The position numbers were made by a program, and so were the translations under genes. Source: Granulicella aggregans (GTDB taxonomy: Bacteria; Acidobacteriota; Terriglobia; Terriglobales; Acidobacteriaceae). From it: a DNA stretch of 64,000 nucleotides. The notes beneath the pieces were generated by a model. That model did no database searches, had not been told where the DNA came from, and saw only the letters and a list, made by a program, of their open reading frames with translations. Shown in pieces: positions 39,470 through 57,204 of the stretch (the first letter of the stretch is position 1; each line of letters starts with the position of its first letter). The DNA lies in contig NZ_JACHIP010000006.1 of the NCBI RefSeq assembly GCF_014203275.1, positions 248,001 through 312,000 on the forward strand, given 5' to 3'.

Positions 39470-42400
39470 CTACCTTGCTACGATGACCCTCTCAGGGACA
39501 GTCAAGGTCACTTTTGTGCCTGTAGGCGAAGAAGCTTCTATAGAGAGTTCCGCCTCAATTCGCGCAGCTCTTTCCTTCATGCCTTGCACCCCGTAGTGGC
39601 CACTCCGTCCGTCTCTTGCAAGGGCTTCAGTTATGCCTAGACCGTTATCGCGGATGCTGAGCACCACATCGTTCGAAAAGACAAGCCTCACCTCAATACG
39701 TGTTCCATGGGAGTGAGTGCAGGCATTTCGAATTGCCTCATGAGCGATCCGATAAACCTCGTCAGTTACGGCGGCATGCAGAGGCTTAGCCTCTCCAGCT
39801 TGAGTGAATACGCCCTCTATACCGCTGCCATCTGTAGCGTCTTGCAAAAGCTTATCGATGGTCGTGCTGAGTGACCCAGCCTGATCTGGCGAGGTTCGTA
39901 AGGACTCAACTGCTACTCGGCCTTCTCTGGTGGCCTGCCCCAGCCACGCGGAGATACGCTCTACTGCCCTACGCATTTGGAGAGGATCCGAGGTATGCAG
40001 TGCGTTGTCTGCGGCCATCTTACTGCCCTGTATTGTCTGTAGCAGAGTGTCGTGCAAGTCTCGCGCGATACGCGTTCTTTCGCCTAGGCGTTCCTCCAGC
40101 TTCATCTTGAACTCGGCTTCTTGCGCTTCGAGACGATGCCGATAGGCCCAATACAGCGCTACTGCGAACAAGATGGCGATCATGGTCCTGAAAGGCCAGC
40201 TATTCCACCAAGCTGGAGCGATGATGATCTTGAGCGCGGCACCAGGCTCAATCCAGAGACCACGGCTCGCCGCAGTTTCGACTCGGAACGTATAGGTGCC
40301 CGCCGGAAGAGTTGTGTAGCTGGCTGTGCGCTTCGTGCCGCTGACTTCGTTCCAATCTCGATCTAGACCGTCTAGTTTGTATCGATACCTCAGTTTGTCG
40401 CTGTTTCGATAGTTTAGCCCTGCGAACGTGAAGGAGAAGATCGATTGAGAGTGATTCAACCTCAGTAGGGACGTGTAGTCAATAGCTTGCTCCAGGAATG
40501 TGTTTGCAGCCGGTGCGATCGACTTCCCGCTGAGTTGAAAGTCAGTAAGTCTGACGCTCGGACGGGATAAGGTCTCAGATACCGTGCGTGGTTGGAACGC
40601 GACTGCGCCGCTGAAGCCTCCAAAGAACATCTCTCCGTCGTCATGTCTTGAACAGGCACCCCAACCTGTAAGATCTTCGCCCGGCAATCCGTCGATCTGT
40701 GCATAAACTTTGAGTGTCCTCGCCGTCGGATCGAACCGGGACAGTCCTCTGTTCGTGCTCATCCATAAAGATCCCGCATCGTCGCTTTGAATGCAGCTGA
40801 TTACATTTCCGGATAGGTCATCGTTCTGGGAAAAATGCTCAAAGCTTTTGCGGTCTTCTTTGAGGCGGTCCAGGCCGTTCTGGGTGCCGACCCAAACGTG
40901 CTTGGAAGCGTCGATATAAATCGTGTTTACTCGGTTGTCGCTTAATGAGGCGGCGTCTTCTGAGTGATGAGTTAAGGTCGTGAATTCTTTCGTCAAAGGA
41001 TCGAAGAAGTCCAACCCTCTATTGCTACCGAGCCACAGCGCTCCGGAGCTGTCTTCAGCGATCGCATAGTAGTTTGTGCTTCCGCGCTCAGGCTTGGATG
41101 TATATGATTCAAAAGAGTGATTGTTCGCGTTAAAATGGCTGATGCCATCCCAGGTAGCCGCCCAAAGTGATCCGGAATGGTCGACTAAGATGCGTTCGAC
41201 GGTGTCGCCAATGATAGCGGACGGATCAGATGGCCTATGACGGTACTGATGCCACCCTGCGGTTTGCGGATCCATACTGAACAGGCCAAAATCCGCTGTT
41301 CCAAACCAAAGAGTTCCGCTGCTGTCTTCGATAATGGATAGCACGTCCGTTCCGTCAAACCGGTGAACGCGTCGGTATGAACCAGTTTTGTGATCAATCA
41401 CCTGAAGAGCGCCGGTCGTGCCGATCCAGATATCTCCGTTGCGATCTTTATAAATTGAGCTGACGAGCGAAGAGACGAGATTGTTGCTCGAGCCCGCCTG
41501 CCGGGAGAAGCTTCGGAAGGAAGAACTGTCCAGCACAAAGAAATCGGGCGAATCCTGATGGAGTCCTACCCAGAATCGGTGTCCGGTGTCCTCGAAGACT
41601 GTGTTGACTCGATTCGAAGCGAGGCTGTTTGAATCACCGATTTCGTTTTGATAGCGAGTAAAGTAAGTGGCCTTTTTATCGAGGCGAAGTAGGCCGAGTC
41701 CCGCAGTGGCGAACCACATCGCTTCCTCGTGGTCCTCCATCATGGAGAAGATCGTGCCCGCTGTTTGGCTTTTGGAGGTTCCGAGATTGGGTTGGATCGG
41801 TGTGAGTTTGCCGGAATTTCGATCCAGGAGACCGAGGCTATTTACGGGACCGTAGGTAACCCAGAAGCGTCCCTGAGAATCTTCGTGAAAAGCGGCACTC
41901 GCGTATATGACGGGAAGCGGAATGTACTTTTCTACGCGACCGCTCGCCAAGTTGAGCTTGTTCAGGCCATTCCGAGTCGCAACCCAGAAGTCGTTATGCC
42001 GGTCCAAGCCTGAGGACTGCACATCATTGCTGCTTATGCTTGAGGGATCTGAGTCCTGATGAACATAGCGATGTACCCGGTGATCAGACTTCGTGATCCC
42101 GTACAGGCCAGCCGAAGTGGAAAGCCAGATAGTTCCGCTCAAATCCTGGCTGATTTGAGCGACAGTCGGTTCTGCTACTCCGGACGGCACGGTGTTGCCA
42201 AGCCGATAATGAGTGAACCGTTCAGTGACTGGATCGTAGTTGTCGAGCGTCTGATCGCACGCAATCCAGAGGGTGCCATTTGCATCTTTGAAAAGCGCTC
42301 TTATGTAAACGCCGCCGAGGCTGTTCGGATTGCTGTTGTCGTGGACGAATACCCGATAGCTATAACCATCAAAGCGGTTGAGGCCATACTGTGTTCCGAA

Positions 42401-42649
42401 CCAGATGAAGCCGTGATCATCCTCAACGATCTGTTCAACTCGCGTTTGCGATAGACCGGCATCGAGCGACAAATGATTGAAGCGAATGTCGGTGCCGCTG
42501 CGAAGCGGAAGCTCAATAGCAGGAATGCTAAGTGCTGGTGACGCGAGACAGCGGAATCGTGATCCAAGCACCAGCAAGATCGCCATGACGACCAGTTTCC
42601 GGTGAATTAGAACGTACAATTCATTCCCCTCACAGCTTTCGGCAGTCAA
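39470..42649 (-). CDS. Hybrid beta-propeller sensor histidine kinase (HisKA_3)
   Basis: 1059 residues. After a signal-like segment (about residues 19-37) come about a dozen propeller repeats of the pattern DxxGxxWxGT, a Y_Y_Y domain (FTFAGLNYRNSDKLRYRYKLDGLDRDW), one transmembrane helix (about residue 835), then a HisKA_3 box with the phospho-His in RIARDLHDTLLQT. The ATPase domain has NACTHS and IRDNGLGI. The periplasmic propeller likely senses a polymer or envelope signal. HisKA_3 kinases pair with NarL-type regulators; the one at 34360 is the candidate. Confidence 0.93.
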   Translation of the reverse strand: MTAESCEGNELYVLIHRKLVVMAILLVLGSRFRCLASPALSIPAIELPLRSGTDIRFNHLSLDAGLSQTRVEQIVEDDHGFIWFGTQYGLNRFDGYSYRVFVHDNSNPNSLGGVYIRALFKDANGTLWIACDQTLDNYDPVTERFTHYRLGNTVPSGVAEPTVAQISQDLSGTIWLSTSAGLYGITKSDHRVHRYVHQDSDPSSISSNDVQSSGLDRHNDFWVATRNGLNKLNLASGRVEKYIPLPVIYASAAFHEDSQGRFWVTYGPVNSLGLLDRNSGKLTPIQPNLGTSKSQTAGTIFSMMEDHEEAMWFATAGLGLLRLDKKATYFTRYQNEIGDSNSLASNRVNTVFEDTGHRFWVGLHQDSPDFFVLDSSSFRSFSRQAGSSNNLVSSLVSSIYKDRNGDIWIGTTGALQVIDHKTGSYRRVHRFDGTDVLSIIEDSSGTLWFGTADFGLFSMDPQTAGWHQYRHRPSDPSAIIGDTVERILVDHSGSLWAATWDGISHFNANNHSFESYTSKPERGSTNYYAIAEDSSGALWLGSNRGLDFFDPLTKEFTTLTHHSEDAASLSDNRVNTIYIDASKHVWVGTQNGLDRLKEDRKSFEHFSQNDDLSGNVISCIQSDDAGSLWMSTNRGLSRFDPTARTLKVYAQIDGLPGEDLTGWGACSRHDDGEMFFGGFSGAVAFQPRTVSETLSRPSVRLTDFQLSGKSIAPAANTFLEQAIDYTSLLRLNHSQSIFSFTFAGLNYRNSDKLRYRYKLDGLDRDWNEVSGTKRTASYTTLPAGTYTFRVETAASRGLWIEPGAALKIIIAPAWWNSWPFRTMIAILFAVALYWAYRHRLEAQEAEFKMKLEERLGERTRIARDLHDTLLQTIQGSKMAADNALHTSDPLQMRRAVERISAWLGQATREGRVAVESLRTSPDQAGSLSTTIDKLLQDATDGSGIEGVFTQAGEAKPLHAAVTDEVYRIAHEAIRNACTHSHGTRIEVRLVFSNDVVLSIRDNGLGITEALARDGRSGHYGVQGMKERAARIEAELSIEASSPTGTKVTLTVPERVIVAR

Positions 42650-44790: not shown

Positions 44791-45262
44791 CAGTAGCGTC
44801 CTACGTCGTCCTTTGGAAGCGCAGCACAGGCGGAGTATCTGTGGGTATATGCAAGTTCTAAGTTTTGAGGCCCGCGGCGCGAAGGGCATTGCGAAGCTCG
44901 CCCTCGAAACAACTGGCTAGTCCGGCCGGTGCGCCCTTAGTGCTTTGGCACGTAGGCGTCTGCTACGGGAAAAAGCCCACGAGAAGCAGGTCCACCTCAA
45001 GAGAGAAAAGATCTCGCAGGAGAAGCAGACCTATAAGATCATCGTCGGCGAGCTACCCACCCGCGGGCCTTGATCCTTACAACAAGCTCATCGACTGCGT
45101 TTCCAGTGATAACAAAATCAATGTAACGAAGCCCTGGCGGTCGCATTTAAATAGCCGGACATGGCCGAATGCGAAGAATGTCGAACAGCAAAAGTCGCTC
45201 CAGAGACTAGTCGAAGTCGAGCGCGATCGCGGGATTTTTCTGTGATAAGTCCGCGAGCATGG
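44791..45262. other. Intergenic region without a clear gene
   Basis: About 470 bases. One frame around 44945-45070 reads a Lys/Glu-rich string ending KQTYKIIVGELPTRGP but has no start or homology I can name. It may be a decayed gene fragment. Confidence 0.4.
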
Positions 45263-45733
45263 CTATTCTGGCAACGGCTTTGAACTGCGTCTTTCGATTA
45301 GCGCGTCAAGAGAGAAGAGACCGGCTCCGAAGATCAGCACGATCACAGAGGCGAACAAAAACGTGAATGGGTCGGCCACATAAAACTTGCCAGGGTCGGA
45401 GAAGATCGCGGTCAGGGCTTCATGGTCGGCGGTCCAATAGGCGACAAACATGTTGATCGCCATCAGAAGACCGACCAGGCGGGTGCCCAGACCAACGATG
45501 AGAAGGATGCCCCCGAAAAACTCCAGTCCAGCGACGAAGTGCGCATTGAAGCCTGGGAAAGGGATATTGAGGGAGGCGAAGAACTCGGTGATTTTAGGGA
45601 TGCCGTGCAGCTTGCCCCAGCCGGTCTGGACGAGCTGCCAGCCCCAGTAGAGCCGAATGACCAGGAGAAAGGGTGACTGCAGCACCGATGCTGCCGCAGC
45701 GAAGCGTGAGTACAGATTGACCAGGGCTTTCAT
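45263..45733 (-). CDS. DoxX-family membrane protein
   Basis: 156 residues with four transmembrane segments. The LVIRLYWGWQLVQTGWGKL opening and FVAGLEFFGGILLIVGLGTRLVGLLMAINM region are the DoxX core. DoxX-like proteins accompany DUF692/DUF2063 bufferin operons in other bacteria, and one such operon begins 1.4 kb away here, though on the other strand and with a gene between. Its role is likely quinone or thiol redox in the inner membrane. Confidence 0.88.
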   Translation of the reverse strand: MKALVNLYSRFAAAASVLQSPFLLVIRLYWGWQLVQTGWGKLHGIPKITEFFASLNIPFPGFNAHFVAGLEFFGGILLIVGLGTRLVGLLMAINMFVAYWTADHEALTAIFSDPGKFYVADPFTFLFASVIVLIFGAGLFSLDALIERRSSKPLPE

Positions 45734-45955
45734 TCATCCTCTTTCAATTCTTTTTTTGAGCGCAGTTCGTAGACCGAAACTGACGCACTGACTTCGATTA
45801 GAGGTTGGCTTGAATAAAACGTTACACCCGAAGAATTGAAGGCGGCGAATTGCGGGAAGCAGAGGCTATTCGTCTTCTCGTACGTCAATAGCTCAGGAAC
45901 GTCAGGCATCATCTAATCTTGCAAGGCTGGTCGCATCGCCAAAGGAGAAGCAGAC

Positions 45956-46915
45956 GTGACATCCGTTTCGCGACTCCTGACCTGCGGTCTACTAGTCGCC
46001 GCAAGCGTCACAGCCTTCCCCCAACAGGAGAGAAGAACCTCCAGGGTTACGTCGTCCCAGTCGATCCACTGCGGAAAAGCACTTCTTCAGGTCGACTTCG
46101 GCGAAGGAAGTTTCGATCTGCCAACCAGCCGGATCGTTCAGCGCGTCCAGGATGTCGCCAATGCCTTGGCAAGGTTTTATGGTGTCTTCCCCGTTGCACG
46201 CACTCGGATTCTCATTCTCCCCGTTGCTGGCCGGCATGGTGTTCTGCAGGGAACAACCTGGGGCGACCGCGACGGCTTCTCCGCCTTTCTCCGCATCCGT
46301 ATTGGCAGTGCGACCACAGCCGAAGAGCTGGTGGATGACTGGATCCTCACGCACGAACTGGTTCATACCGCGCTCGCTTCCCTTCCCGACGACCAAAGCT
46401 GGCTCGAAGAGGGGCTGGCGAGCTACATCGAACCATTCATCCGGATGGAGGCTGGGGAGATCACCCCGGAAACGATGTGGGCAGGCATGGTGCGAGGCAT
46501 GCCGAACGGCGAGCCCGAAGGCGGCGACAAGGGAATGAACAATACTCATACCTGGGGACGGACCTATTGGGGTGGGGCGCTCTTCTGCCTGGAAGCTGAC
46601 GTGCGAATCCGCCGCGCTACTGGAAATCGAATGGGGCTACCCGATGCGCTCCGAGGTATCGTCGCAGCCGGGGCCACGATCGACCGAGAGATGCCACCGG
46701 CGAAGGTTCTCGCGATCGGAGACGCGGCCACGAAGACCAGTGTTCTTGAAGAGATGTACGGTGAGTGGTCGAAGTCGCCGGTGATGGTCGACCTCCCCAC
46801 CTTGTGGAACGACCTGGGAGTGCAGTTGAGCGGACGCACCGTCGTACTCAGCCCAAAGGCTCCGCTCGCGTCCGTTCGCGTGGCCATGTCCGCTTCTGGA
46901 CACTTACCGGGGTGA
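45956..46915 (+). CDS. Exported HExxH (peptidase MA-like) putative metalloprotease
   Basis: 319 residues. GTG 45956 has AAAGGAG about nine bases upstream; the first 21 residues (LLTCGLLVAASVTAFPQ) form a signal peptide. The zinc-binding HELVH lies near residue 137, followed by WLEEGLASYIEP, where the second Glu would be the third ligand: a gluzincin/peptidase-MA layout. The substrate is unknown. It lies upstream of the bufferin-like operon but separated from it by a 233-base spacer with its own operator-like site. Confidence 0.75.
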   Translation: MTSVSRLLTCGLLVAASVTAFPQQERRTSRVTSSQSIHCGKALLQVDFGEGSFDLPTSRIVQRVQDVANALARFYGVFPVARTRILILPVAGRHGVLQGTTWGDRDGFSAFLRIRIGSATTAEELVDDWILTHELVHTALASLPDDQSWLEEGLASYIEPFIRMEAGEITPETMWAGMVRGMPNGEPEGGDKGMNNTHTWGRTYWGGALFCLEADVRIRRATGNRMGLPDALRGIVAAGATIDREMPPAKVLAIGDAATKTSVLEEMYGEWSKSPVMVDLPTLWNDLGVQLSGRTVVLSPKAPLASVRVAMSASGHLPG

Positions 46916-47001
46916 GTTGCTCCATGTCGCTCAAGGGATGAGCCTTAGGAATTTCTTGGAGGACGTTGTAACCAATCTCCGGGTTGCTGCTCCAATGTGA
47001 A

Positions 47002-47063
47002 GTAACGAGCCTCGTGAAAATGTTCCGTTACTTTTTAATCCGCACAGCGAACATTTTCGTTAT
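47002..47063. promoter_or_regulatory. Nested inverted repeats upstream of the bufferin-like operon (operator candidate)
   Basis: GAAAATGTTC (47016-47025) and GAACATTTTC (47049-47058) form a perfect 10-base inverted repeat, centres 33 bases apart, about three helical turns. GTAACG (47002-47007) and CGTTAC (47026-47031) form a second, nested repeat, and CGTTAT again follows the right arm. It lies 90 bases before the precursor start. Confidence 0.55.
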
Positions 47064-47148
47064 CTTGGTACCTGCAATTTAGCGAGTCGTTTCCGATCAA
47101 CGTCCTGCGTACGATGTGCGCGGCCCAACCATAGAAAGGTTCACGTAC

Positions 47149-47430
47149 ATGAAGAACTCCACAAAGTCTCTCGCTCTGGCCGCCGCATTCGCTGGCCTCG
47201 TTGGTGGTACCGCTGTCCGTGCCCAGGTTCAGCCGACACAGCAGGCGACCTCCTCAGTACATGCCGGCGTTATGGTCGCATCGGCTGCAACCGAGCCAGC
47301 AAAGCACGCCTGTAAGGGCAAGAACGATTGCAAGGGCCAGGGCGGCGGCGATGCCAAGCACGCTGGCAAGAACAGCTGCAAGGGCAAGGGTGCTTGCGCC
47401 ACCGATGGTTCCAAGCCGTCGTTCGTCTAG
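47149..47430 (+). CDS. Bufferin-like RiPP precursor with two C-K-G repeats
   Basis: 93 residues. ATG 47149 has GAAAGG nine bases upstream. Residues 1-25 are a Sec signal (SLALAAAFAGLVGGTAVRA). The C-terminal core has four cysteines at 55, 61, 77 and 83, in two similar units: HACKGKNDCKGQGG and KNSCKGKGACATDG. Small exported Cys-rich proteins upstream of DUF692 and DUF2063 genes are bufferin/HvfA-type precursors whose Cys are oxidatively modified and bind copper or other soft metals. The usual EGKCG motif is absent; CKGxxxC replaces it, so this is a variant class. Modification is inferred. Confidence 0.82.
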   Translation: MKNSTKSLALAAAFAGLVGGTAVRAQVQPTQQATSSVHAGVMVASAATEPAKHACKGKNDCKGQGGGDAKHAGKNSCKGKGACATDGSKPSFV

Positions 47431-47444
47431 TCTTACCGTAACCC

Positions 47445-47472
47445 TGGGGCCTGAAGCCGCTTTCAGGCCCCA
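47445..47472 (+). terminator. Hairpin between precursor and maturase genes (attenuator candidate)
   Basis: TGGGGCCTGAA (47445-47455), loop GCCGCT, TTCAGGCCCCA (47462-47472): an 11-bp perfect stem with no T run after it. Its place suggests partial termination or mRNA 3'-end protection that gives more precursor than enzyme. Confidence 0.6.
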
Positions 47473-47505
47473 TCACTACTTAACACCGCTTTAGACAGAG
47501 GAACG

Positions 47506-48387
47506 ATGCCGGCCAATCGCTTTAATGGATTCACGGACTACGGCGTGGGTATCGGGCTGCGCGTCCCGCACTACGAACACATCTTTGCCGAAAAGCCAGT
47601 GGTGGACTGGTTCGAGATCATCTCGGAAAACTACATGGTCGACGGCGGCCGGGCGCTGAAGGTGCTCGACCAGATTCTTGACCAGTACCGAGTGGTGCAG
47701 CACGGCGTCTCGATGTACTTTGGTTCCGCTCAGCCGCTGAATCGCGAGCACCTGAAGCGACTGAAGACTCTGACGAAGCGCACCAAAACTCCGTGGCTCT
47801 CCGACCATCTCTGCTGGGGTAGCGTGGACGGCCGCTACACGCACGATCTACTTCCCCTTCCTTACACGTGGGAGGCTGTCGAGACGACCGCACTACGGAT
47901 CCGCGAGGTGCAGGACTTCCTCGAAATTCCGGTCGCGGTAGAAAACGTCAGCAGCTACGCCGAGTTTCACGAGTCGGAGATGACGGAGTGGGAGTTTCTG
48001 AATGAGGTTGTTCATCGCGCTGACTGCGGCATCCTGCTCGACGTGAATAATATCTACGTCTCCTCGCAAAACCACAGCTTCGATCCGATGGTTTATGTCA
48101 ACGCCGTCCCCGCCGAGCGCGTGGCCCAGATACACGTTGCGGGTCACTCCAAGTTTGAGAAGTACACGCTCGATACGCACGATCATCCCGTGCTCGACCC
48201 GGTGTGGAAGATGTATGCGCGCGCGATTGAGCGGGTTGGACCGACGGCGACGCTGCTGGAGTGGGACGACAGTATTCCTTCGTTCGACGAGGTCCACAAT
48301 GAGGCGCTCAAAGCGAACCGGTATCTCGTTGGTGCCGAAGCGTCCGTTGCGATTGCATCGCAGGAGCTCGAAGAGGTTCACGCATGA
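47506..48387 (+). CDS. DUF692 multinuclear non-haem iron oxidase (BufB/MbnB-type maturase)
   Basis: 293 residues, a TIM-barrel iron enzyme (MNIO) that rewrites Cys residues of a precursor peptide. Conserved ligand segments are visible: GLRVPHY, QHGVSMYFG, SDHLCWG, AVENVSSY, LLDVNNIYVSSQNHSFD, HVAGHS, DTHDHPV and EWDDSIPSF, supplying His, Asp and Glu ligands for two or three irons. AGAGGAACG precedes ATG 47506. The stop overlaps the start of the DUF2063 gene (ATGA), so the two are made together. Assignment to the bufferin branch rests on that partner and the precursor. Confidence 0.93.
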   Translation: MPANRFNGFTDYGVGIGLRVPHYEHIFAEKPVVDWFEIISENYMVDGGRALKVLDQILDQYRVVQHGVSMYFGSAQPLNREHLKRLKTLTKRTKTPWLSDHLCWGSVDGRYTHDLLPLPYTWEAVETTALRIREVQDFLEIPVAVENVSSYAEFHESEMTEWEFLNEVVHRADCGILLDVNNIYVSSQNHSFDPMVYVNAVPAERVAQIHVAGHSKFEKYTLDTHDHPVLDPVWKMYARAIERVGPTATLLEWDDSIPSFDEVHNEALKANRYLVGAEASVAIASQELEEVHA

Positions 48388-49280
48388 CGCTGCTGGAGCT
48401 GCAACGACGCATGTCCGACGATGTCCGTCGACCGCTCACGCCGGAGATGGCGATGCAGACAGAAGCAGCCGATGGCGCGTCGGTACATACGCTCGCAGAG
48501 ACCTACATCAAGCCCAATGACCGGCTGACCTCGTTCGATCGGCTCGAGATCTACAACCGGCAGTACTGGTTCCGGGTGATCACGGCGGTGTCGGAAGATT
48601 ACCCGGCGTTGAATGCGCTGCTCCGCGAGAAGAAGTTCGATGCGTTGGTGCTGGCCTATCTCAAGGAGCACGCTTCGACGTCGTGGACGCTGCGTGATCT
48701 CGGTGCGAAGCTGCCGCAATGGCTGGAGGCTCATCCGGAGTTCGGTCCGAAGAAGCACAAGTTGATGGTCGATGTGGCCCGCCTCGAGTGGGCGTATATC
48801 GAGTCTTATGATGGCACGGCGCTTCCTCCGCTTGCAGAGGAGGACTTTCGTTATCTCGCGGAGGACTCGACGCTGACGCTTCAGCCTCATCTGCAATTGC
48901 TTGCCCTGCGCTATCCCGTGGATGAACTCGTGCTGGCGGTCCACAAGGCGACGCCGGAGACCGACATCGTAAGCAACGCCGTATCCGAGCGTAAGAAGAC
49001 GAGTGGCATGGCGCTGCCGGAGATGTTGCGCGCGAAGGTCTTCCTCGCTGTGCATCGGTACGACAGCTCCGTGTACTATCGCCGGATCGAGCCCGAGGCG
49101 TTCGCTCTGCTGGCGGCATTGAAGGCTCAGCAGACTTTGGGTGAAGCTATTGAGAACACGTTCTCGGGCAGCCGCCTCTCCCCCGAAGAGCAGGCGCAGA
49201 AGATTCAGGCGTGCTTCGCACACGCAGCAGAGCTTGGCTGGTTCTGTCGCGAGCAGACTGGTCCAGCCAGCATTCAATAG
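48384..49280 (+). CDS. DUF2063 partner protein (BufC/HvfC-type)
   Basis: 298 residues. The N-terminal LLELQRRMSDDVRRPL and the ETYIKPNDRLTSFDRLEIYNRQYWFRV segment are the DUF2063 hallmark; a helical C-terminal region follows. In characterised MNIO systems the partner binds the precursor and delivers it to the iron oxidase. It overlaps the oxidase gene by four bases and is followed four bases later by the DUF255 gene. No cysteine motif of its own. Confidence 0.9.
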   Translation: MTLLELQRRMSDDVRRPLTPEMAMQTEAADGASVHTLAETYIKPNDRLTSFDRLEIYNRQYWFRVITAVSEDYPALNALLREKKFDALVLAYLKEHASTSWTLRDLGAKLPQWLEAHPEFGPKKHKLMVDVARLEWAYIESYDGTALPPLAEEDFRYLAEDSTLTLQPHLQLLALRYPVDELVLAVHKATPETDIVSNAVSERKKTSGMALPEMLRAKVFLAVHRYDSSVYYRRIEPEAFALLAALKAQQTLGEAIENTFSGSRLSPEEQAQKIQACFAHAAELGWFCREQTGPASIQ

Positions 49281-49283
49281 CCG

Positions 49284-51056
49284 ATGAAAACTTCTCTCTC
49301 CATGGCGCGTACCGCGATCTGGGCTGTCGCTCTCTTCGCTGCGCCGCTGGCGCAGGGACAGGCGCCTAAGCCGATCGAATGGCATCCGTGGTCGGACGAA
49401 GTGTTTGCGCAAGCCGCTCGCGAGCACAAGTATGTGCTGCTCGATCTTGAAGCCGTGTGGTGTCACTGGTGCCATGTGATGGACCAGACAACCTATCGAG
49501 ACGCAGCCGTTCGTAAGCTGATGGGCAAGAGCTATATCGCGGTGAAGGTCGATCAGGACTCGCGGCCGGACATCTCCAACCGGTACGAAGACTTCGGATG
49601 GCCAGCCACGGTCATCTTCAATCCGAACGGAGGCGAGATCGTGAAGCGGCAGGGCTACTTGCCTCCCATACAGATGGCGTCCATCCTGCAAGCGGTCATC
49701 GACGACCCAACGCCAGGACCCTCTGTTGAAGCCGAGAAGACGATCACCTACGCGACGAATCCGTACTTCCCGGCGGCTCTTGTCTCGAAGGTCAACCAGG
49801 AGTTTGCGAAGCAGTATGACGTTGAGGGCAAGGGCTGGGCCTTCGGGCATAAGTATCTCGACGCGGATTCGGTGGAGTACGCTAACATCCTTGCGCGCAA
49901 CGGAGACAAGCTCGAGGCGCAGCGGGTTCGCGACACGCTGGTCGCGGCGAAGAAGCTGCTCGACCCGGTGTGGGGCGGAGCTTATCAGTACTCGACTGGT
50001 GGAAATTGGGATGAGCCGCACTACGAGAAGCTGCTCTACATCCAGGCACAGACCATGCGCGCCTACGCGCAATCGTATGCGCAGTGGCACTCGCAGGAGT
50101 ATCTTGACGCGGCGCAGAACGTACATCGCTATGTACATACATTCTTGACCAGCCCCGAAGGTGCTTTCTATGTCAGCCAGGATGCTGACCTGGTCGAAGG
50201 CAAGCATGGCGGAACGTACTTCGCTCTTAGTGATGCGAAGCGCCGAGCGCTCGGCATACCGCGCGTGGACAAGAATTTATATGCGCGAGAGAACGGCTGG
50301 ATGATCCGCTCACTCTGCGCTCTGTACGCTGCGACCGGAGATTCGAGTGTGTTGCAGGAGGCGGAGAAATCCGCTCATTGGGCGATCGATCACCGCTCGC
50401 TTCCAGGGGGTGGTTTTCGGCATGGAGAGCACGATGCGGCGGGGCCGTTTCTGGGCGACTCGCTTGCGATGGGGCAGGCCCTTCTCGCGCTCTACGAGGC
50501 GACCGCCGATCGCGATTGGTTGAAGCGTGCCGAGGGTGCGCGACGTTTCATCTCCGCGAACTTCGCGCTTGCATCAAGCCCAGGCTTTGGGACATCGAAG
50601 ACATCGACAGACCATGCCTACCAGCCGCATCCGGAGCGCGACGAGAATGTGGCCGTCGCGAGGTTCGCGAACCTTCTCTATCAGTACACCGGCGACGCGG
50701 GGGACCCGGACACGTCGAAGCGAGCGATGCGCTATCTTGCAACGCCGGAGGTAGCGGTGGGGTGGCTCTCGGCGCCTGTGCTTCTTGCGGAGAGCCAGTT
50801 CACCCAGCCTGCGGTCCATATCACGGTCGTTGGGCCGAAGCAGGATGCATCGGCGAAGCTGCTCTTCGCTACTGCGTTGAAGTCGGGGCCACTTTATAAG
50901 CGGCTGGAGTGGTGGGACCGATCCGAAGGCGCGCTGCCAAGAAACGATATCGAATATCCCGCGCTGCCGAAGCCGGCTGCGTTTCTCTGCACCGCCTCCG
51001 CATGCTCTTCGCCGATCACCGATCCCCAGGTTCTTCAGAAGAAGCTAGGCCTTTGA
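49284..51056 (+). CDS. Exported DUF255 thioredoxin-fold/(alpha/alpha)6-barrel protein
   Basis: 590 residues. A signal peptide (AIWAVALFAAPLAQGQA) is followed by a thioredoxin-like domain with WCHWCHVM (CxxC, about residue 61) and the cis-Pro region FGWPATVIFNPNG, then a long helical barrel as in YyaL/SSP411 proteins. Unlike typical cytoplasmic YyaL it carries a secretion signal. Only three bases separate it from the DUF2063 gene, so it belongs to the RiPP operon and could reduce, oxidise or otherwise process the exported Cys-rich peptide (inference). Confidence 0.85.
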   Translation: MKTSLSMARTAIWAVALFAAPLAQGQAPKPIEWHPWSDEVFAQAAREHKYVLLDLEAVWCHWCHVMDQTTYRDAAVRKLMGKSYIAVKVDQDSRPDISNRYEDFGWPATVIFNPNGGEIVKRQGYLPPIQMASILQAVIDDPTPGPSVEAEKTITYATNPYFPAALVSKVNQEFAKQYDVEGKGWAFGHKYLDADSVEYANILARNGDKLEAQRVRDTLVAAKKLLDPVWGGAYQYSTGGNWDEPHYEKLLYIQAQTMRAYAQSYAQWHSQEYLDAAQNVHRYVHTFLTSPEGAFYVSQDADLVEGKHGGTYFALSDAKRRALGIPRVDKNLYARENGWMIRSLCALYAATGDSSVLQEAEKSAHWAIDHRSLPGGGFRHGEHDAAGPFLGDSLAMGQALLALYEATADRDWLKRAEGARRFISANFALASSPGFGTSKTSTDHAYQPHPERDENVAVARFANLLYQYTGDAGDPDTSKRAMRYLATPEVAVGWLSAPVLLAESQFTQPAVHITVVGPKQDASAKLLFATALKSGPLYKRLEWWDRSEGALPRNDIEYPALPKPAAFLCTASACSSPITDPQVLQKKLGL

Positions 51057-51069
51057 TCCCGTCCTAAGA

Positions 51070-53400
51070 TCAGGACACCTTCCACTTTGTGGACAGCATG
51101 GCGAGCTTTTCGCTGAGGCTCACCTCAGGTGGAGGGATGGTCCGAGCAGCCTGTCTCGGAGGCGGGAAGTTCCGATTCTTCTGCGGCGAGACCGCGCCAG
51201 CCTTGGCCACCGCAGCGGTTGGCATAGTGACACGCGTGCCTCCCATCAGTGCCTTCATCGATAAAGCGATGCGCTTGGTCTTTACGTCGGCGCTGAGGAC
51301 TTTGACCTTTACAATTTGTCCCGCTTTGACGGCTTCGGATGGATCTTTGATGTATCGGTTGGAGAGCTCGCTGATGTGAACCAGGCCGTCCTGGTGAACT
51401 CCGATATCGACAAATGCGCCGAACTTCGTGACGTTGGTCACAACGCCTTCGAGGATCATCTCTGGCTGAACATCAGCAAATTCGCGAACCTGCTCATTGA
51501 AGCTCGGCGCGATGAACTGTTCGCGTGGATCGCGGCCGGGCTTGCGCAACTCTTCGAGAATGTCTTTGACGGTGAAAGTGCCGGCATCGATCTGGCGAGC
51601 GTCGACTTTGGTGAGGAGCGCCGGGTTGGCGACCAGCTCGCCGATAGGAGTGCCGAGCGAGCGGGCGATCTGCTCCACCACACGGTAAGACTCAGGGTGA
51701 ACGGCGGTGCCATCGAGAGGGTCTTCCCCGTTGCGGATACGCAGGAATCCAGCGGCCTGCTCGAAGGTCTTGGCCCCGATACCGGGAACTTTGTTGAGTT
51801 GCTTACGGGAGCGGAAACGTCCGTGCTCGTCGCGATAGGCAACGATGTTCAGGGCGACCCGTTCGGTCACTCCGGCAACGTAACGCAGCAGTGTCCAGGA
51901 AGAGGTATTGAGGTCGACGCCTACCCGGTTGACGCAGCTCTCGATGGCAGTCTCAAGCGATTGCTGAAGCTGACGCTGATCGACATCGTGCTGGTACTGG
52001 CCAACGCCGATCGACTTGGGATCGACCTTGACGAGCTCGGAGAGCGGGTCCTGTAGGCGGCGGGCGATGGAGATCGCCCCGCGCACGGTTAGATCGAGAT
52101 CCGGAAACTCCTGTCGCGCGATGTCAGATGCGGAGTAGATGCTGGCGCCGGACTCGCTGACTGTGACCGAGAAGATGTTGTCGAGGTGATTGTCGCGGAG
52201 CGTGTCGCGAACAAAGGAGTCTGTCTCGCGCGAGGCAGTGCCGTTGCCGATGGCGATGGCGCGGACGTTGTACTTCGCGAGCATGGCGACCAAGCGCTCA
52301 GCGGCTCCGGTGGCTGCGCTCTTTGAGCTGCTGAGGTAGAGAACATCGTGCGCGAGAAACTTACCCGTCTCATCGACTACAGCGACCTTGCATCCGGTGC
52401 GGAGGCCGGGATCGATGCCCAGGACGGAGATGGGGCCAGCAGGCGCGGCGAGCAGAAGATTCTGCAGGTTGTCGCGGAAGACCTGGATCGCGTCGGCGTC
52501 GGATCGCTTCTTTAGTTCGAGGCGGATCTCGCCCTGGACGGATGGGTTGAGGAGACGCTTCCAGCAATCGTCGATCGCAAGTTCAAGCTGTGGGGTCCAA
52601 TCGCCTTCAGTGCGCAGGATGCGAGAGCGAAGCTGCGCGGTGACACGAAGCGGATCGAGCTCGATGAGGAAGTAGAGGACCGACTCTTCCTCGCCGCGAC
52701 GAATGGCGAGCATTCGGTGCGAAGGGATGGTTTTCACCGGCTCGCTGTACTCGTAGTACATCTTGAACTTTTCCTGCTCGTCGACGCTGTCGAGGGCTCG
52801 GCGGCTCTGGATGATGCCTTCTTCAAACATCAGGTGCCGAGTCAGCTTACGCAAATCCGCGTCTTCGCTGATGCGCTCGGCGATGATATGGCGCGCTCCC
52901 TCGAGGGCGTCGGCGACGGTGGCCACTTCCTTCTCCGGGCTGACGAATGTCGCGGCTAAGTCATGCAGGGAGAGCTCTACAGGCTGCTGGTTCCAAAGGT
53001 AATCGGCCAACGGTTCAAGCCCTTTGTCGCGAGCGATCGTTGCCTTGGTGCGGCGCTTGGGGCGATAGGGGAGGTAGAGATCTTCCAACTCGGACCGATC
53101 AAAGGTGGCTTCGATTCTGGCCTTCAGTTCGTCGGTCAGTTTGCCTTGCTCCAAGATGGAAGCGAGGACGGTCGTGCGCCGGCTGAGAAGATCGCGGAGG
53201 TAGGCAAGCTTCTCTTCGATAGCGCGAATCTGTACCTCGTCGAGATTGCCCGTCACCTCTTTGCGGTAGCGCGCAATGAAAGGAACGGTGCCGCCTTCGT
53301 CAAGAAGAGCTATGACGGCGACGAGCGAGTGCATGGAGATATTGAGTGAGGTAGTAATTTGCAGCAGAGCTTCGGTGGGGAGTGTCTTCGCGTCAATCAT
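51070..53400 (-). CDS. tex: Tex-type transcription accessory protein with S1 RNA-binding domain
   Basis: About 776 residues. Order: Tex N-terminal helical domain (VPFIARYRKEVTGNLDEVQ), YqgF/RNase H-like domain (SVLGIDPGLRTGCKVAVVD), helix-hairpin-helix (KVPGIGAKTFEQAAGFLRI), and S1 domain (LEGVVTNVTKFGAFVDIGVHQDGLVHISEL), with a short basic tail. It binds nucleic acid and affects transcription in the cytoplasm. Start ATG 53400 (MIDAKTLPTEALL) chosen; upstream frame is non-homologous. Confidence 0.95.
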   Translation of the reverse strand: MIDAKTLPTEALLQITTSLNISMHSLVAVIALLDEGGTVPFIARYRKEVTGNLDEVQIRAIEEKLAYLRDLLSRRTTVLASILEQGKLTDELKARIEATFDRSELEDLYLPYRPKRRTKATIARDKGLEPLADYLWNQQPVELSLHDLAATFVSPEKEVATVADALEGARHIIAERISEDADLRKLTRHLMFEEGIIQSRRALDSVDEQEKFKMYYEYSEPVKTIPSHRMLAIRRGEEESVLYFLIELDPLRVTAQLRSRILRTEGDWTPQLELAIDDCWKRLLNPSVQGEIRLELKKRSDADAIQVFRDNLQNLLLAAPAGPISVLGIDPGLRTGCKVAVVDETGKFLAHDVLYLSSSKSAATGAAERLVAMLAKYNVRAIAIGNGTASRETDSFVRDTLRDNHLDNIFSVTVSESGASIYSASDIARQEFPDLDLTVRGAISIARRLQDPLSELVKVDPKSIGVGQYQHDVDQRQLQQSLETAIESCVNRVGVDLNTSSWTLLRYVAGVTERVALNIVAYRDEHGRFRSRKQLNKVPGIGAKTFEQAAGFLRIRNGEDPLDGTAVHPESYRVVEQIARSLGTPIGELVANPALLTKVDARQIDAGTFTVKDILEELRKPGRDPREQFIAPSFNEQVREFADVQPEMILEGVVTNVTKFGAFVDIGVHQDGLVHISELSNRYIKDPSEAVKAGQIVKVKVLSADVKTKRIALSMKALMGGTRVTMPTAAVAKAGAVSPQKNRNFPPPRQAARTIPPPEVSLSEKLAMLSTKWKVS

Positions 53401-53509: not shown

Positions 53510-56500
53510 ATGATCTTTCGAAGGAAAACTCGACAGTCCGAGGTCGGCACTCAACATGAGCGGGCCTGCTTGTCTCGGTTTGGAGCTGCCTTAGCCGCTG
53601 CACTCACACTCTTTGCAATCGTTCAACCTGCCTCTTCTGGTGCCGAACTCCGAGACCTGCGGCACAAAGTCTTGACGACATGGACCACGGAGCAAGGCCT
53701 TCCGCAGGATTTTGTGACTGCGATCGCACAGACTCCGGATGGATTTCTCTGGGTGGGGACGAATGGCGGACTAGCTCGGTTCGATGGGTTGAAGTTTCGG
53801 ACGTTTTTGCAGGCTCCCGCGGCACTGCGGCATCGGATTACCAATCTTGGGGTTGATGCCAGAGGGACGCTTTGGATTGGTACCTCTACGGGACTGTTTA
53901 AGTATGAGAGTCATACTTTCAGCGCCGTTCCGCTTGAGAAAAAGGCCTCGGCTATAGAGCAGATCTTATGTCGAAGCGACGAACCATTTGCGTGGGTACG
54001 GACCAAGTCAGAGCTGTATCGAGCTGGAGTTACGGGTGATGAGTTCGTCAAGGTCCCGGTGCTCCTCGAAAAAGTCAGAAGCTTTACTGTGGATGACAAA
54101 GAGGAGCAGTGGCTCGCGGATGGCGAAGCTGTTACGCAGGTGCGAGAGGGACGTGTGGTGCAGGTATATCCGATGCCTGGCGTAAACCTCGTCTACTTTG
54201 GGCCGGATAAGCGGCTCTACGCAGCGGATGGACATCACCTTTTTGTCTACGCGAATGGCGGGTTCAGGAAGACGGAGAAAGAAGGGCCGGAGGAGCTGGT
54301 GACTGTGATGGTCGATCGCTCGGGGGCCATTTGGATGGCGAGCGGTGGCCTTGAAGGGATCAGCAGATTCGCGGCTGGGAAGCTCGAGATCCTCGGTGCG
54401 CGAGATGGCCTGGCGAGCAATGACGCCCGGGAGATCTTTGAAGACAAGAGCGGAGATATCTGGGTGGGAACGATCTCCGGATTGCAGCAACTTCATGATG
54501 GGACGTTTGTGAGCTACACCGAACGCGACGGACTGCCATCAGGTCATGTGCAGTACGACGCCATCTTTGAAGACAATGCGAAAGCGATTTGGGTAGGCAC
54601 GCTCGAGTCAGGCGTGGCGCAACTGACCGGGGATCGTTGGCAGAGTTACGGCATAGCGCAGGGAGTCAGGCGAGGACAGGTTCGCGGCCTGGCCGAGGAC
54701 GGGGCACACCCAGTGATCGCAATCTCCGACTACGGGCTCTATTGGTATCGAAGCGGGAGGTACCGGAAGATCGGCGGCGTGCCTGAAGGCTATATCTCTT
54801 CTCCGATAACGACAGCGGATGGAAGCCTCTGGTTCAGCGTGCTGCGCAAGGGCGTGTACCGACTGCGAGAGGGTGTGCTGACCTCGTTCGGCGCAGCCCA
54901 GGGACTCGGTGACACACAGGTGTGGGCGCTGGCTGAAGATGGCCGAGGCGCGCTGTGGGCAGGCGCAAGCAACGGAGCATACCGGTGGGACGGGAACCGA
55001 TGGAAGCAGGAATATGTGACCGCGAGTGCCGTAGATGGCATTGCCTTCTCGCATGACGGCGGGATCTATCTTGGGACATCGAATGGGTTGGTGTATCACA
55101 ACGATGCGAAGAGCTGGGTCCTGACGCAGGAAGATGGCTTGCCGGGGGACGCTGTGTTCTCGTTAGTGGAGGACGCGCGGGGAGACCTGTGGCTGGCGAC
55201 TGCACGAGGCGTGTGCCGGATATCTCGGGCGCAAGTGGATGCGATGCTGGCTGGAACGAAGCAGGTCGCGCCTGAGGTGTTTACGGAAGCAGATGGCCTG
55301 CGAAGCCGCGCGACGCTGCCCCTGGGACAAGTGACATCGCTTCGGGCGAAAGATGGCCGACTGTGGTTTGCCACCGCCGCTGGACCTGCGGTTGCAGAAC
55401 CCGGTACGACGGTGAGTGAGTTGCCTCGGGCGATGCTGGACGACGTTGCAGTCGATGAGGAACACTTCGGGGCCGGGCCTTTGGTCGTGAAGCCGGGGAG
55501 ACATCGGCTGACGTTTTCCTTTACCGCGCCGGTCTTCGTCGCACCGGAGCAGGTGCATTTTCGTTATCGATTGCTGGGATGGGAGAGCGACTGGGTCAAT
55601 GGCGGCGATGTGCGCGAGGCCTCCTACGTGGGCATTCCGCCGGGGCAGTATCACTTCGAGGTGCAGGCGCTGAGTCGCGATGGGCAAGCGGGCCCGGTCA
55701 CCTACACCGTCGGCGTGCGGCTGCAGCCATTCTTCTGGCAGACACGATGGTTTGTGCTTCTCATGATCGCGCTGCTCGTAGCTGTGGTGATTGAAGTGAC
55801 GAGGAGGAGAACGCTGCGAAGGGCGGAGAGTCTGAACCTGAGATTTCAGGAACGATCGGCGGAGCGTGAACGTTTGGCGTCGCACATCCACGACACGTTT
55901 ATCCAAGACCTGACGGGAACTGCGCTACAGCTTGAGTTATTGGGTCTGCAGTTGGAAGAAGACCCCGATGTGGCGCGGCGCTCGTTGAGTCATCTTGCGG
56001 CACGGATGCGGGAGATGATCGGGCGGAGTCGCGACATCGTTTCGAATCTGCACTCCATGGCAGGAACGCAGTACAGCCTGTTGGAGTTACTAAGCCATGT
56101 TGAGACAGAGTTTCGGTTGGGAGAGAGCCCGGCGTTCGTCCTGCAAAGCAAGGAAGAGCCGCGCGAGCTTCATCCATTTTTGCGTGATGAGGTTTACAGC
56201 ATCTGTCGGGAAGCGGTGGCGAACGCCTTTCGTCACGCGGGGGCGAGTGTGATTGAAGTCAAAATCGTCTATCAAGCAAATAAGCTGCTGGTGCAGATCC
56301 AGGACGACGGAGTCGGCATGAGCGACGAGATGCGAGTGAAGGGACGCCCGGGGCACTTCGGGTTGCCCGGGATGCAAGCCCATGCGCAGCGCATCGACGC
56401 GGTACTCGCGGTCGAAAGCAAGGTCGGCGTGGGAACGAAGATCACTCTCGAAACTGCGCTGCGCCCTCTTGAGGCACGGTGGTGGAGCTTACCTTGGCGG

Positions 56501-56545
56501 CGCAACTCGCAACGCGAGCGATCGTTCGACCAGCACACGCAGTAG
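53510..56545 (+). CDS. Beta-propeller sensor histidine kinase (HisKA_3)
   Basis: 1011 residues. A signal or anchor segment at about residues 24-44 is followed by propeller repeats (TPDGFLWVGTNGGLARFDG and others), a Y_Y_Y domain (VHFRYRLLGWESDW), a transmembrane helix (FVLLMIALLVAVVIEV), and a HisKA_3 kinase with the phospho-His in LASHIHDTFIQD, then ANAFRHAG and IQDDGVGM ATPase motifs. It is divergent from tex and followed 17 bases later by its response regulator. It is paralogous in layout to the island kinase at 39470. Confidence 0.95.
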   Translation: MIFRRKTRQSEVGTQHERACLSRFGAALAAALTLFAIVQPASSGAELRDLRHKVLTTWTTEQGLPQDFVTAIAQTPDGFLWVGTNGGLARFDGLKFRTFLQAPAALRHRITNLGVDARGTLWIGTSTGLFKYESHTFSAVPLEKKASAIEQILCRSDEPFAWVRTKSELYRAGVTGDEFVKVPVLLEKVRSFTVDDKEEQWLADGEAVTQVREGRVVQVYPMPGVNLVYFGPDKRLYAADGHHLFVYANGGFRKTEKEGPEELVTVMVDRSGAIWMASGGLEGISRFAAGKLEILGARDGLASNDAREIFEDKSGDIWVGTISGLQQLHDGTFVSYTERDGLPSGHVQYDAIFEDNAKAIWVGTLESGVAQLTGDRWQSYGIAQGVRRGQVRGLAEDGAHPVIAISDYGLYWYRSGRYRKIGGVPEGYISSPITTADGSLWFSVLRKGVYRLREGVLTSFGAAQGLGDTQVWALAEDGRGALWAGASNGAYRWDGNRWKQEYVTASAVDGIAFSHDGGIYLGTSNGLVYHNDAKSWVLTQEDGLPGDAVFSLVEDARGDLWLATARGVCRISRAQVDAMLAGTKQVAPEVFTEADGLRSRATLPLGQVTSLRAKDGRLWFATAAGPAVAEPGTTVSELPRAMLDDVAVDEEHFGAGPLVVKPGRHRLTFSFTAPVFVAPEQVHFRYRLLGWESDWVNGGDVREASYVGIPPGQYHFEVQALSRDGQAGPVTYTVGVRLQPFFWQTRWFVLLMIALLVAVVIEVTRRRTLRRAESLNLRFQERSAERERLASHIHDTFIQDLTGTALQLELLGLQLEEDPDVARRSLSHLAARMREMIGRSRDIVSNLHSMAGTQYSLLELLSHVETEFRLGESPAFVLQSKEEPRELHPFLRDEVYSICREAVANAFRHAGASVIEVKIVYQANKLLVQIQDDGVGMSDEMRVKGRPGHFGLPGMQAHAQRIDAVLAVESKVGVGTKITLETALRPLEARWWSLPWRRNSQRERSFDQHTQ

Positions 56546-56562: not shown

Positions 56563-57204
56563 GTGATACTTTCTGAAGCTGTGCATACGGCAACGCTCAA
56601 GGTACTTATCGTCGATGATCACCCCATGGTCCGGGAAGGGCTTGCCGGCATCTTCGCGCGGTACAACATCAGCGTCACTGGCCTCGCGTCCAATGGACAG
56701 TCGGCCATCGAGATGTTTCGGGCCGAGAGGCCGGATGTAGTGCTGCTGGACCTGCGACTCCCAGACCAGAGTGGGATCGAAGTATTGCGGGCGTTATTGG
56801 CAATAGATCCGCAGACGCGCGTGGTCATGTTGACGTCTGCCCAAGGCGATGCGTCGGTGTATGAAGCGATCAGCGCGGGAGCTTGTGGATACCTACTGAA
56901 GGGTATCGAGGGCGGAGCGCTAGCAGAGCAGCTAAGACGCGTCGCGGCAGGCGGAAAGGCGCTTCCAGCCGAGACGACCGAGAAGCTGGCGACCTACATC
57001 GGATCGCGAAAGCTGAGCGAGCGCGAGGTTGAGGTGCTCACATTGATTTCGCGTGGGAAGAGCAACAAAGAGGCCGCACAGTTGTTGTTCATCACGGAAG
57101 ACACGGTAAAGATGCACGTGAAGAACATTCTGCAGAAGCTGCAGGCGAGCGATCGTACGCAGGCGGTCGTTATAGCTTTGCAACGCGGCTTCCTGAACCT
57201 GTAA
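56563..57204 (+). CDS. NarL/FixJ-type response regulator, partner of the upstream kinase
   Basis: 213 residues. Receiver domain: VLIVDDHPMVREGLAG, phospho-Asp in VVLLDLRLPDQSG, and Lys in LLKGIEGG. The DNA-binding domain is LSEREVEVLTLISRGKSNKEA, then EDTVKMHVKNILQKLQ. Start is GTG 56563; GTG 56581 would also keep the whole receiver. It sits 17 bases after the kinase gene and upstream of the S53 peptidase gene, a possible target. Confidence 0.94.
   Translation: MILSEAVHTATLKVLIVDDHPMVREGLAGIFARYNISVTGLASNGQSAIEMFRAERPDVVLLDLRLPDQSGIEVLRALLAIDPQTRVVMLTSAQGDASVYEAISAGACGYLLKGIEGGALAEQLRRVAAGGKALPAETTEKLATYIGSRKLSEREVEVLTLISRGKSNKEAAQLLFITEDTVKMHVKNILQKLQASDRTQAVVIALQRGFLNL

Follow-up and report, generated by a model that had tools for sequence, protein, structure and literature searches.

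We analysed a 64,000-nucleotide stretch of the Granulicella aggregans genome (Acidobacteriota; assembly GCF_014203275.1, contig NZ_JACHIP010000006.1, positions 248,001 to 312,000 of the forward strand; hereafter the window), focusing on a cysteine-rich peptide gene and the MNIO (DUF692) gene that follows it. The locus is probably a Buf2-derived bufferin operon of the Cys-Lys captophorin group, whose precursor lacks the central Cys pair of its six-Cys relatives. A preliminary description made from the sequence had proposed a bufferin-type MNIO operon here, and this was borne out. The bufA-like precursor gene (47149–47430, + strand, read as an open reading frame from an ATG) encodes 93 residues with C55, C61, C77 and C83 in two C-x5-C pairs, as described. 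The three genes predicted to come after it were also confirmed as open reading frames in the same direction: a BufB-type MNIO (47506–48387, 293 residues; PF05114), a PME1/BufC-like DUF2063 partner (48384–49280, 298 residues; PF09836 and the DUF2063 tree) and a DUF255/DsbH-type thioredoxin-fold protein (49284–51056, 590 residues; PF03190). All Pfam scores lay above cut-off (361, 58.7 against a cut-off of 27.2, and 98.7 bits, respectively). The gaps of a few bases said to separate these genes were found at the last two junctions (the genes overlap by 4 bases at one and lie 3 nt apart at the other), not between precursor and MNIO, where 75 nt hold a hairpin.

The MNIO passed the cut-off of the NCBIfam BufB model NF050167 (353.6 bits; cut-off 310) and fell under those of HvfB (258.8 of 360 bits), ApyH and ChrH; a methanobactin identity was ruled out by the MbnB model (TIGR04159, 40.3 bits versus a cut-off of 325). 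It is the only PF05114 match in its own genome. Nine residues (H66, H101, E146, D179, N182, H210, D223, H225 and E252) were invariant in 14 MNIO homologues and aligned with solved MNIO structures as far as the profile hits extended, and the iron site that the preliminary description had made the touchstone of its reading is thus present in the residues taken for it. The individual iron ligands are putative, named by motif alignment. By motif, N182, D223 and H225 are taken as the equivalents of N175, D242 and H244 of HvfB (PMC13419390, in part). The D254-D255 pair aligned to D-F of 3BWW, a close HvfB relative, with D255 at the Phe, and EWDD was found in each Buf2-type MNIO of loci L001–L050 that reached this motif. 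In Cys-Lys MNIOs, Asp replaces Phe at the FonB-Phe250 site and is modelled as touching the substrate Lys (PMC13097082, in part); D255 is this signature Asp and sits where the enzyme selects the residue that follows Cys.

Precursors were read as open reading frames 5' of the MNIO in 150 genomes of the same family (58 with any MNIO) and in named loci (the best 80 of at least 567 confirmed relatives). Identical MNIOs were merged and L001, L012, L047–L050, L086 and L104 dropped, giving a tree set of 115 rows; its loci are not independent lineages, several coming from the same genome and near-copies remaining after merging. The results showed Cys-rich precursors of the same type 5' of the MNIO in 111 of these 115 distinct loci, and the pairing is therefore not a matter of chance. 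The four rows without a precursor label comprised a contig edge (L109), a precursor split over two frames (L087) and two loci in which none was found (L038 and L041). The L087 precursor, from a Verrucomicrobiota metagenome-assembled genome, is of six-Cys type, and its two frames reflect either a sequencing error or a pseudogene.

Among the 111 precursors, 80 had a 3+3 layout (C-x5-C-x5-C ... C-x5-C-x5-C; L046 with a seventh Cys), 22, the window's included, lacked C3 and C4, six lacked C4 (including L116, which has two extra tail Cys), two were three-Cys units and one (L006) was aberrant. These classes follow correction by eye of script calls (81 six-Cys, 23 four-Cys, 5 without C4, 2 three-Cys), in which L006, a five-Cys array, was taken out of the four-Cys class and L116 moved from six-Cys to the class without C4. 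C1, C2, C5 and C6 were kept in all precursors of the first three layouts, and the invariant Cys of a 29-precursor alignment were exactly C55, C61, C77 and C83 of the window. In the per-position counts, which retain L006 and L116 as originally classed, KG came after C2 in 107 and after C5 in 106 of 109 precursors, and N-x stood before each of them in 107 or more of the 109; among the four retained Cys, only these two stand in an N-x-C-K-G context. The CKGK units attributed to the window precursor hold for C55 and C77, while C61 reads CKGQ and C83 lies in GACAT. A degenerate CxGxNxCKG pattern matched exactly once in the own genome, at the precursor itself. By inspection and in the precursor alignment, the N-terminus resembles a Sec-type signal, with a basic start, a hydrophobic stretch and a possible A-x-A-like site. 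The single three-Cys-unit precursors, found 5' of the MNIO in L126 and L097 (CKGKNTCKGKGGC type), possibly represent the minimal Buf2 module.

Two Buf2-like precursors on proteobacterial plasmids showed the same 5-5-6-5 Cys spacing and INxCKG motif as the six-Cys relatives, and we assign the precursor type to Buf2 on this basis. A Buf1 identity was rejected, with no DUF2282 match at E ≤ 1, as was an EGKCG/oxazolin captophorin identity, since the precursor carries no EGKCG repeats. The C-K-G motif had been called non-canonical for lacking the EGKCG of described members; however, EGKCG marks the oxazolin group alone, the described Buf2/Cys-Lys members are of CKG type, and NACKG is one of the common 5-mers tested for the Cys-Lys captophorin group (PMC13097082, in part). 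The suggestion of new product chemistry found no support either, and new chemistry from C-K-G was rejected in view of the published Cys-Lys/Buf2 group: all characterised MNIO and DUF2063 cases install 5-thiooxazoles, and whether others do more is left open there (PMC13097082, in part). The operon is an ordinary Buf2-type one in kind, and the variation in its precursor is real but modest.

To place the four-Cys form, trees were built for the MNIO and for DUF2063, both without an inferred root, and loss of C3 and C4 is the simplest reading of them. Seventeen four-Cys rows, one of them from the window, grouped on the MNIO tree in a single Granulicella/Edaphobacter clade (SH-aLRT 97) beside the six-Cys L010 and L017; the same two genera supply the nearest named relatives by MNIO. 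The remaining four-Cys rows look separate and lack the same C3 and C4 pair; L098, which has long branches, fell outside this clade in the MNIO phylogeny, with an unsure placement. The four-Cys label required at least five changes on the MNIO tree, two of them forced by starred branches, and four on the DUF2063 tree (110 rows, 21 four-Cys), all forced by starred branches. The stretches that replace the C3/C4 region also differ (GQGGGKHPGKNSC; GQGADGKNSC; GNGGGDEKQFGKNAC). On the simplest reading of the trees, the same central Cys pair was lost several times. DUF2063 identity to the window separated the clade (54–67%) from the other rows (35–52%), whereas MNIO identity overlapped (82–90% versus 69–86%), suggesting that the recognition partner DUF2063 has drifted together with the precursor. 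Module one minus its last Cys and module two minus its first would give an outer-inner-inner-outer arrangement as in Buf1, whose two central Cys are modified and whose outer two form a disulfide.

A promoter-like site of extracytoplasmic function (ECF) sigma type, TGTAACC-N16-CTC, was found by pattern scan at 46967–46992 (+), ending 156 nt 5' of the precursor ATG, once in the window against 0.23 expected. GTAAC[CT] occurred within 350 nt upstream of the precursor at 64 of 111 loci, compared with a mean of 7.9 and a maximum of 15 when control sequence was drawn 100 times from these loci, and GTAACC-N15..18-CTC at 31 loci (control mean 1.5, maximum 4). Genome-wide the exact pattern gave 26 sites versus 25 in the control, and a broad regulon was rejected on this count. 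One of the other 25 sites (L156, at about 186607 on contig C3 of the own genome) precedes a redoxin-like gene with, by eye, a signal-like start, possibly a second member of the same regulon as judged from sequence. In Caulobacter, a sigma-F promoter of the form GTAACC-N16-CGAA drives two DUF692 operons under dichromate stress (PMC3511200, in part); its -35 element is the same as that of the window site, and its -10 differs. Neither a sigma nor an NrsF gene was found in the window operon, and Buf2 clusters are reported to be without sigma genes. No sigma-70-type promoter was found at 45600–51400, and an inverted repeat upstream of the precursor (GAAAATGTTC/GAACATTTTC) was not found in the upstream stretches of other loci.

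The strong hairpin between the precursor and MNIO genes (47445–47472, +, a 12-bp stem-loop) had a z of -3.3 against dinucleotide shuffles. By the same measure, 85 of the 108 precursor-MNIO gaps folded had z < -2 (mean -3.3), and no Rfam family matched at 45000–51500. The hairpin is probably an attenuator or an mRNA stabiliser.

By analogy with Buf1, we infer that the product is a thiooxazole peptide that buffers copper, with its outer Cys joined in a disulfide and its two inner Cys modified. Envelope stress, probably excess copper, would switch on the ECF-type promoter, and the hairpin 3' of the precursor gene would keep the precursor abundant. The DUF2063 protein would bind the precursor through its signal-peptide leader, and the di-iron MNIO would oxidise the Cys in N-x-C-K-G (C61 and C77) to 5-thiooxazoles, with D255 in contact with the following Lys. 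Export by Sec and cleavage of the signal would come next, a C55–C83 disulfide would form, perhaps aided by the thioredoxin-fold DUF255 protein, and the mature peptide would sequester Cu(I) in the periplasm. In support, fontiphorin loses four H for each modified Cys, and the Caulobacter Buf2 shows the same per-Cys mass loss as Buf1, a similar 305 nm maximum and a similar function (PMC12452194, in part).

Several observations weigh against this assignment and the working proposed for it. The precursor has four Cys rather than the published Buf2 hallmark of six (in 90%) or twelve, C3 and C4 being absent, and it scored 27.2 bits (E 3.3e-6) against the BufA2 model NF050166, short of the cut-off of 60. 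Four six-Cys relatives tested also fell under this cut-off (36–44 bits), so the curated model is narrower than the lineage. Where present, C4 was preceded by NG in 72 of 81 precursors and followed by KG in 61 of 81, and often stands in N-x-C-K-G itself; this context alone therefore fails to single out C2 and C5, and C4 may itself have been a modifiable Cys before its loss. AlphaFold gave an uninformative model for the precursor (predicted local distance difference test score, pLDDT, 50), which lends the C55–C83 disulfide no structural support. The promoter pattern, as given above, is not enriched genome-wide, and the eight neighbouring genes scanned include no copper gene.

These points leave room for other readings of the peptide. 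All four Cys could become thiooxazoles with no disulfide, and the peptide would then be a small Cu(I) sponge without fixed structure, comparable to the EGKCG peptides. KG follows three of the four Cys, fontiphorin loses four H per repeat, and the EGKCG products are suspected of stochastic copper binding. However, Ala follows C83, the equivalent C6 is followed by KG in just 2 of 109 precursors, and Buf1 has an outer disulfide; we regard a four-thiooxazole product as unlikely. That the four-Cys form is instead a precursor in decay, with a product that has lost its function, is very improbable. Two of six conserved Cys are absent and the score is under the family cut-off, but the 17 rows of the clade retain the same four Cys in intact frames, with the MNIO active-site motif in those checked, and rows outside the clade lack the same Cys pair. 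It is doubtful, too, that the operon responds to another metal or to thiol or oxidative stress rather than to copper. Sigma-F mediates the response of the Caulobacter relatives to chromium and cadmium (PMC3511200, in part), and a thioredoxin-fold protein and DoxX adjoin in the window, with no copper gene in the neighbours scanned. Against this, captophorin products generally bind copper (PMC13097082, in part), and bufferins improve growth under copper stress (PMC12452194, in part). A Buf2-like precursor-MNIO-DUF2063 set on a Pseudomonas mandelii JR-1 plasmid (L178) lies within an island of heavy-metal genes (P-type ATPase, MerR-family regulator, DUF2933, TolC), which we count in favour of the Buf2 copper-buffering reading.

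Two further genes relevant to the operon lie upstream of the precursor. The first (45956–46915, +) encodes a protein with a signal-like N-terminus and an HExxH motif; H133, E134, H137 and the downstream E152 were invariant in 17 rows. Its predicted model (pLDDT 90) resembles M61/M1 peptidases, with fold matches to 4fgm (Z 22.0, 280 residues, root-mean-square deviation 4.2) and the M61 structure 8j9c (Z 19.6, 273 residues, root-mean-square deviation 3.5). Neither Pfam (E up to 10) nor the PDB sequences (E up to 1) gave a match, and none was found in PHROGs or in the plasmid collection. The protein thus shares with M1/M61 metallopeptidases the predicted fold and the HExxH and downstream Glu, and differs in having no Pfam or PDB sequence match; it is a candidate peptidase by fold. 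From its model it is probably a secreted peptidase, and it may process the bufferin peptide.

To assess the association of this gene with Buf2-type MNIOs, we compared their occurrence across genomes. The HExxH gene was present in 27 of 149 other family genomes, and all 27 had a Buf2-type MNIO, compared with an expected overlap of 8.3 (Buf2-type MNIO in 46 of 149; P = 1e-17, not corrected for kinship). Eleven of the 58 MNIO genomes had been classed as non-Buf2-type, their matches being weak or different; against all 58 the overlap was likewise 27 of 27 (P = 4e-14, also uncorrected). A decoy gene from the same window, used after the first gene tried proved too rare (3 of 150), gave 23 of 71 genomes with a Buf2-type MNIO versus 21.9 expected. 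In a phylum draw of 297 genomes, the gene was found in 15, the window genome included, from five families, all among the 42 genomes over the BufB cut-off; the two draws overlap (for example in G000 and G050) and are not independent tests. Many Buf2-type genomes lack a match (19 of 46 in the family, 27 of 42 in the phylum draw), and the gene is therefore not required for the operon. In family genomes it often lies on another contig or far from the MNIO. Within the best 80 named loci, it lay within 5 kb of the MNIO in 18: nine directly after DoxX on the same strand, two after DoxX and DUF255, one (L087) after DUF2063, and six upstream, three on the same strand (L088 being a partial open reading frame without the motif) and three on the opposite strand.

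We tentatively propose, as the less probable outcome, that in Acidobacteriota and Verrucomicrobiota the HExxH protein acts as a peptidase dedicated to Buf2 maturation, trimming or releasing the exported thiooxazole peptide, and that the four-Cys precursor is a minimal two-module Buf2 core that reached the Buf1 layout independently. Were the peptidase dedicated to this role, the bufferins of these phyla would act as processed metallophores, not as intact proteins of the periplasm. The strict co-occurrence of the HExxH gene with Buf2-type MNIOs makes it testable whether the peptides are whole or cut, a question raised for EGKCG products (PMC13097082, in part); according to PMC12538549 (in part), its EGKCG clusters have no protease nearby. 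No link between an HExxH protein and bufferins was found in the open-access main texts covered. In the available part of PMC12452194, HExxH proteins come up solely in connection with another cluster, adjamnio-III, which has MNIO/nitroreductase fusions, and the terms peptidase, protease and thioredoxin were absent from the text of PMC13097082.

The window DUF255 protein, which has a WCHWC motif and, by inspection, a signal-like N-terminus, is a short form distinct from the common paralogue of about 700 residues. A DUF255 match was found in 142 of 150 family genomes, mostly this longer paralogue at about 29–50% identity and often over the thioredoxin domain only. Only three other family genomes had a match above 50% identity over at least 500 residues; in two of these it lies 5' of the MNIO at a distance of about 1.6 kb, and in the third on a contig separate from that of the MNIO. 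DUF255 lay near the MNIO in six of the best 80 named loci, in varying positions; over all loci, DUF255 hits near an MNIO were seen in L051, L067, L085, L101, L117, L124, L037 and L146. In two Verrucomicrobiota (L117 and L124) the run is MNIO-DUF2063-DoxX-DUF255-HExxH. The terms DUF255 and thioredoxin were absent from the text of PMC12452194, and no literature on DUF692 with DUF255, or on MNIO with Acidobacteri, was found within the same search scope.

The four-Cys lineages amount to a natural deletion experiment in which, in this sample, C3 and C4 are dispensable and C1, C2, C5 and C6 are kept. The retention pattern is a direct prediction for mass spectrometry of Buf2-type peptides, since the Buf2 modifications are not identified in the available part of PMC12452194. 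A four-Cys Buf2 was not found in the available parts of PMC12452194 and PMC13097082, and may stand in the supplement of the former, which holds hundreds of small unclassified Cys-bearing precursors.

The second upstream gene (45263–45733, -) encodes an HvfX-like DoxX family protein (PF07681, 74.7 bits) divergent from the operon, which scored 61.6 bits against NF050144, under its cut-off of 80. Farther out, the region has on either side a large sensor histidine kinase with Reg_prop propellers (39470–42649 and 53510–56545), the second being followed by a LuxR-type response regulator (56563–57204).

Compared with known systems, the operon shares with Buf2 (BufA2B2C2; Cys-Lys captophorins) the order precursor-MNIO-DUF2063, a nearby DoxX, a signal-like N-terminus, an MNIO of BufB type that carries the Cys-Lys Asp, CKG motifs and the 5-5-6-5 spacing of its six-Cys relatives. 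It differs in having four Cys, with C3 and C4 absent, where described Buf2 bufferins have six or twelve (PMC12452194, in part), in not reaching the BufA2 cut-off, in its additional DUF255 and HExxH genes, and in the divergent DoxX. With the oxazolin/fontiphorin (HvfA, EGKCG) captophorins it has in common the MNIO and DUF2063 pair and a Cys-rich precursor with a signal-like N-terminus, whereas EGKCG is missing, Asp rather than Phe occupies the substrate-selecting site, and the MNIO falls under the HvfB cut-off. Unlike Buf1 (DUF2282), it has no DUF2282 match and no sigma or NrsF gene in the operon, yet it resembles Buf1 in its four Cys, in the proposed layout of an outer and an inner pair, in the -35 GTAACC of the Caulobacter sigma-F promoters, and in an MNIO of the same large cluster (PMC12452194, in part).

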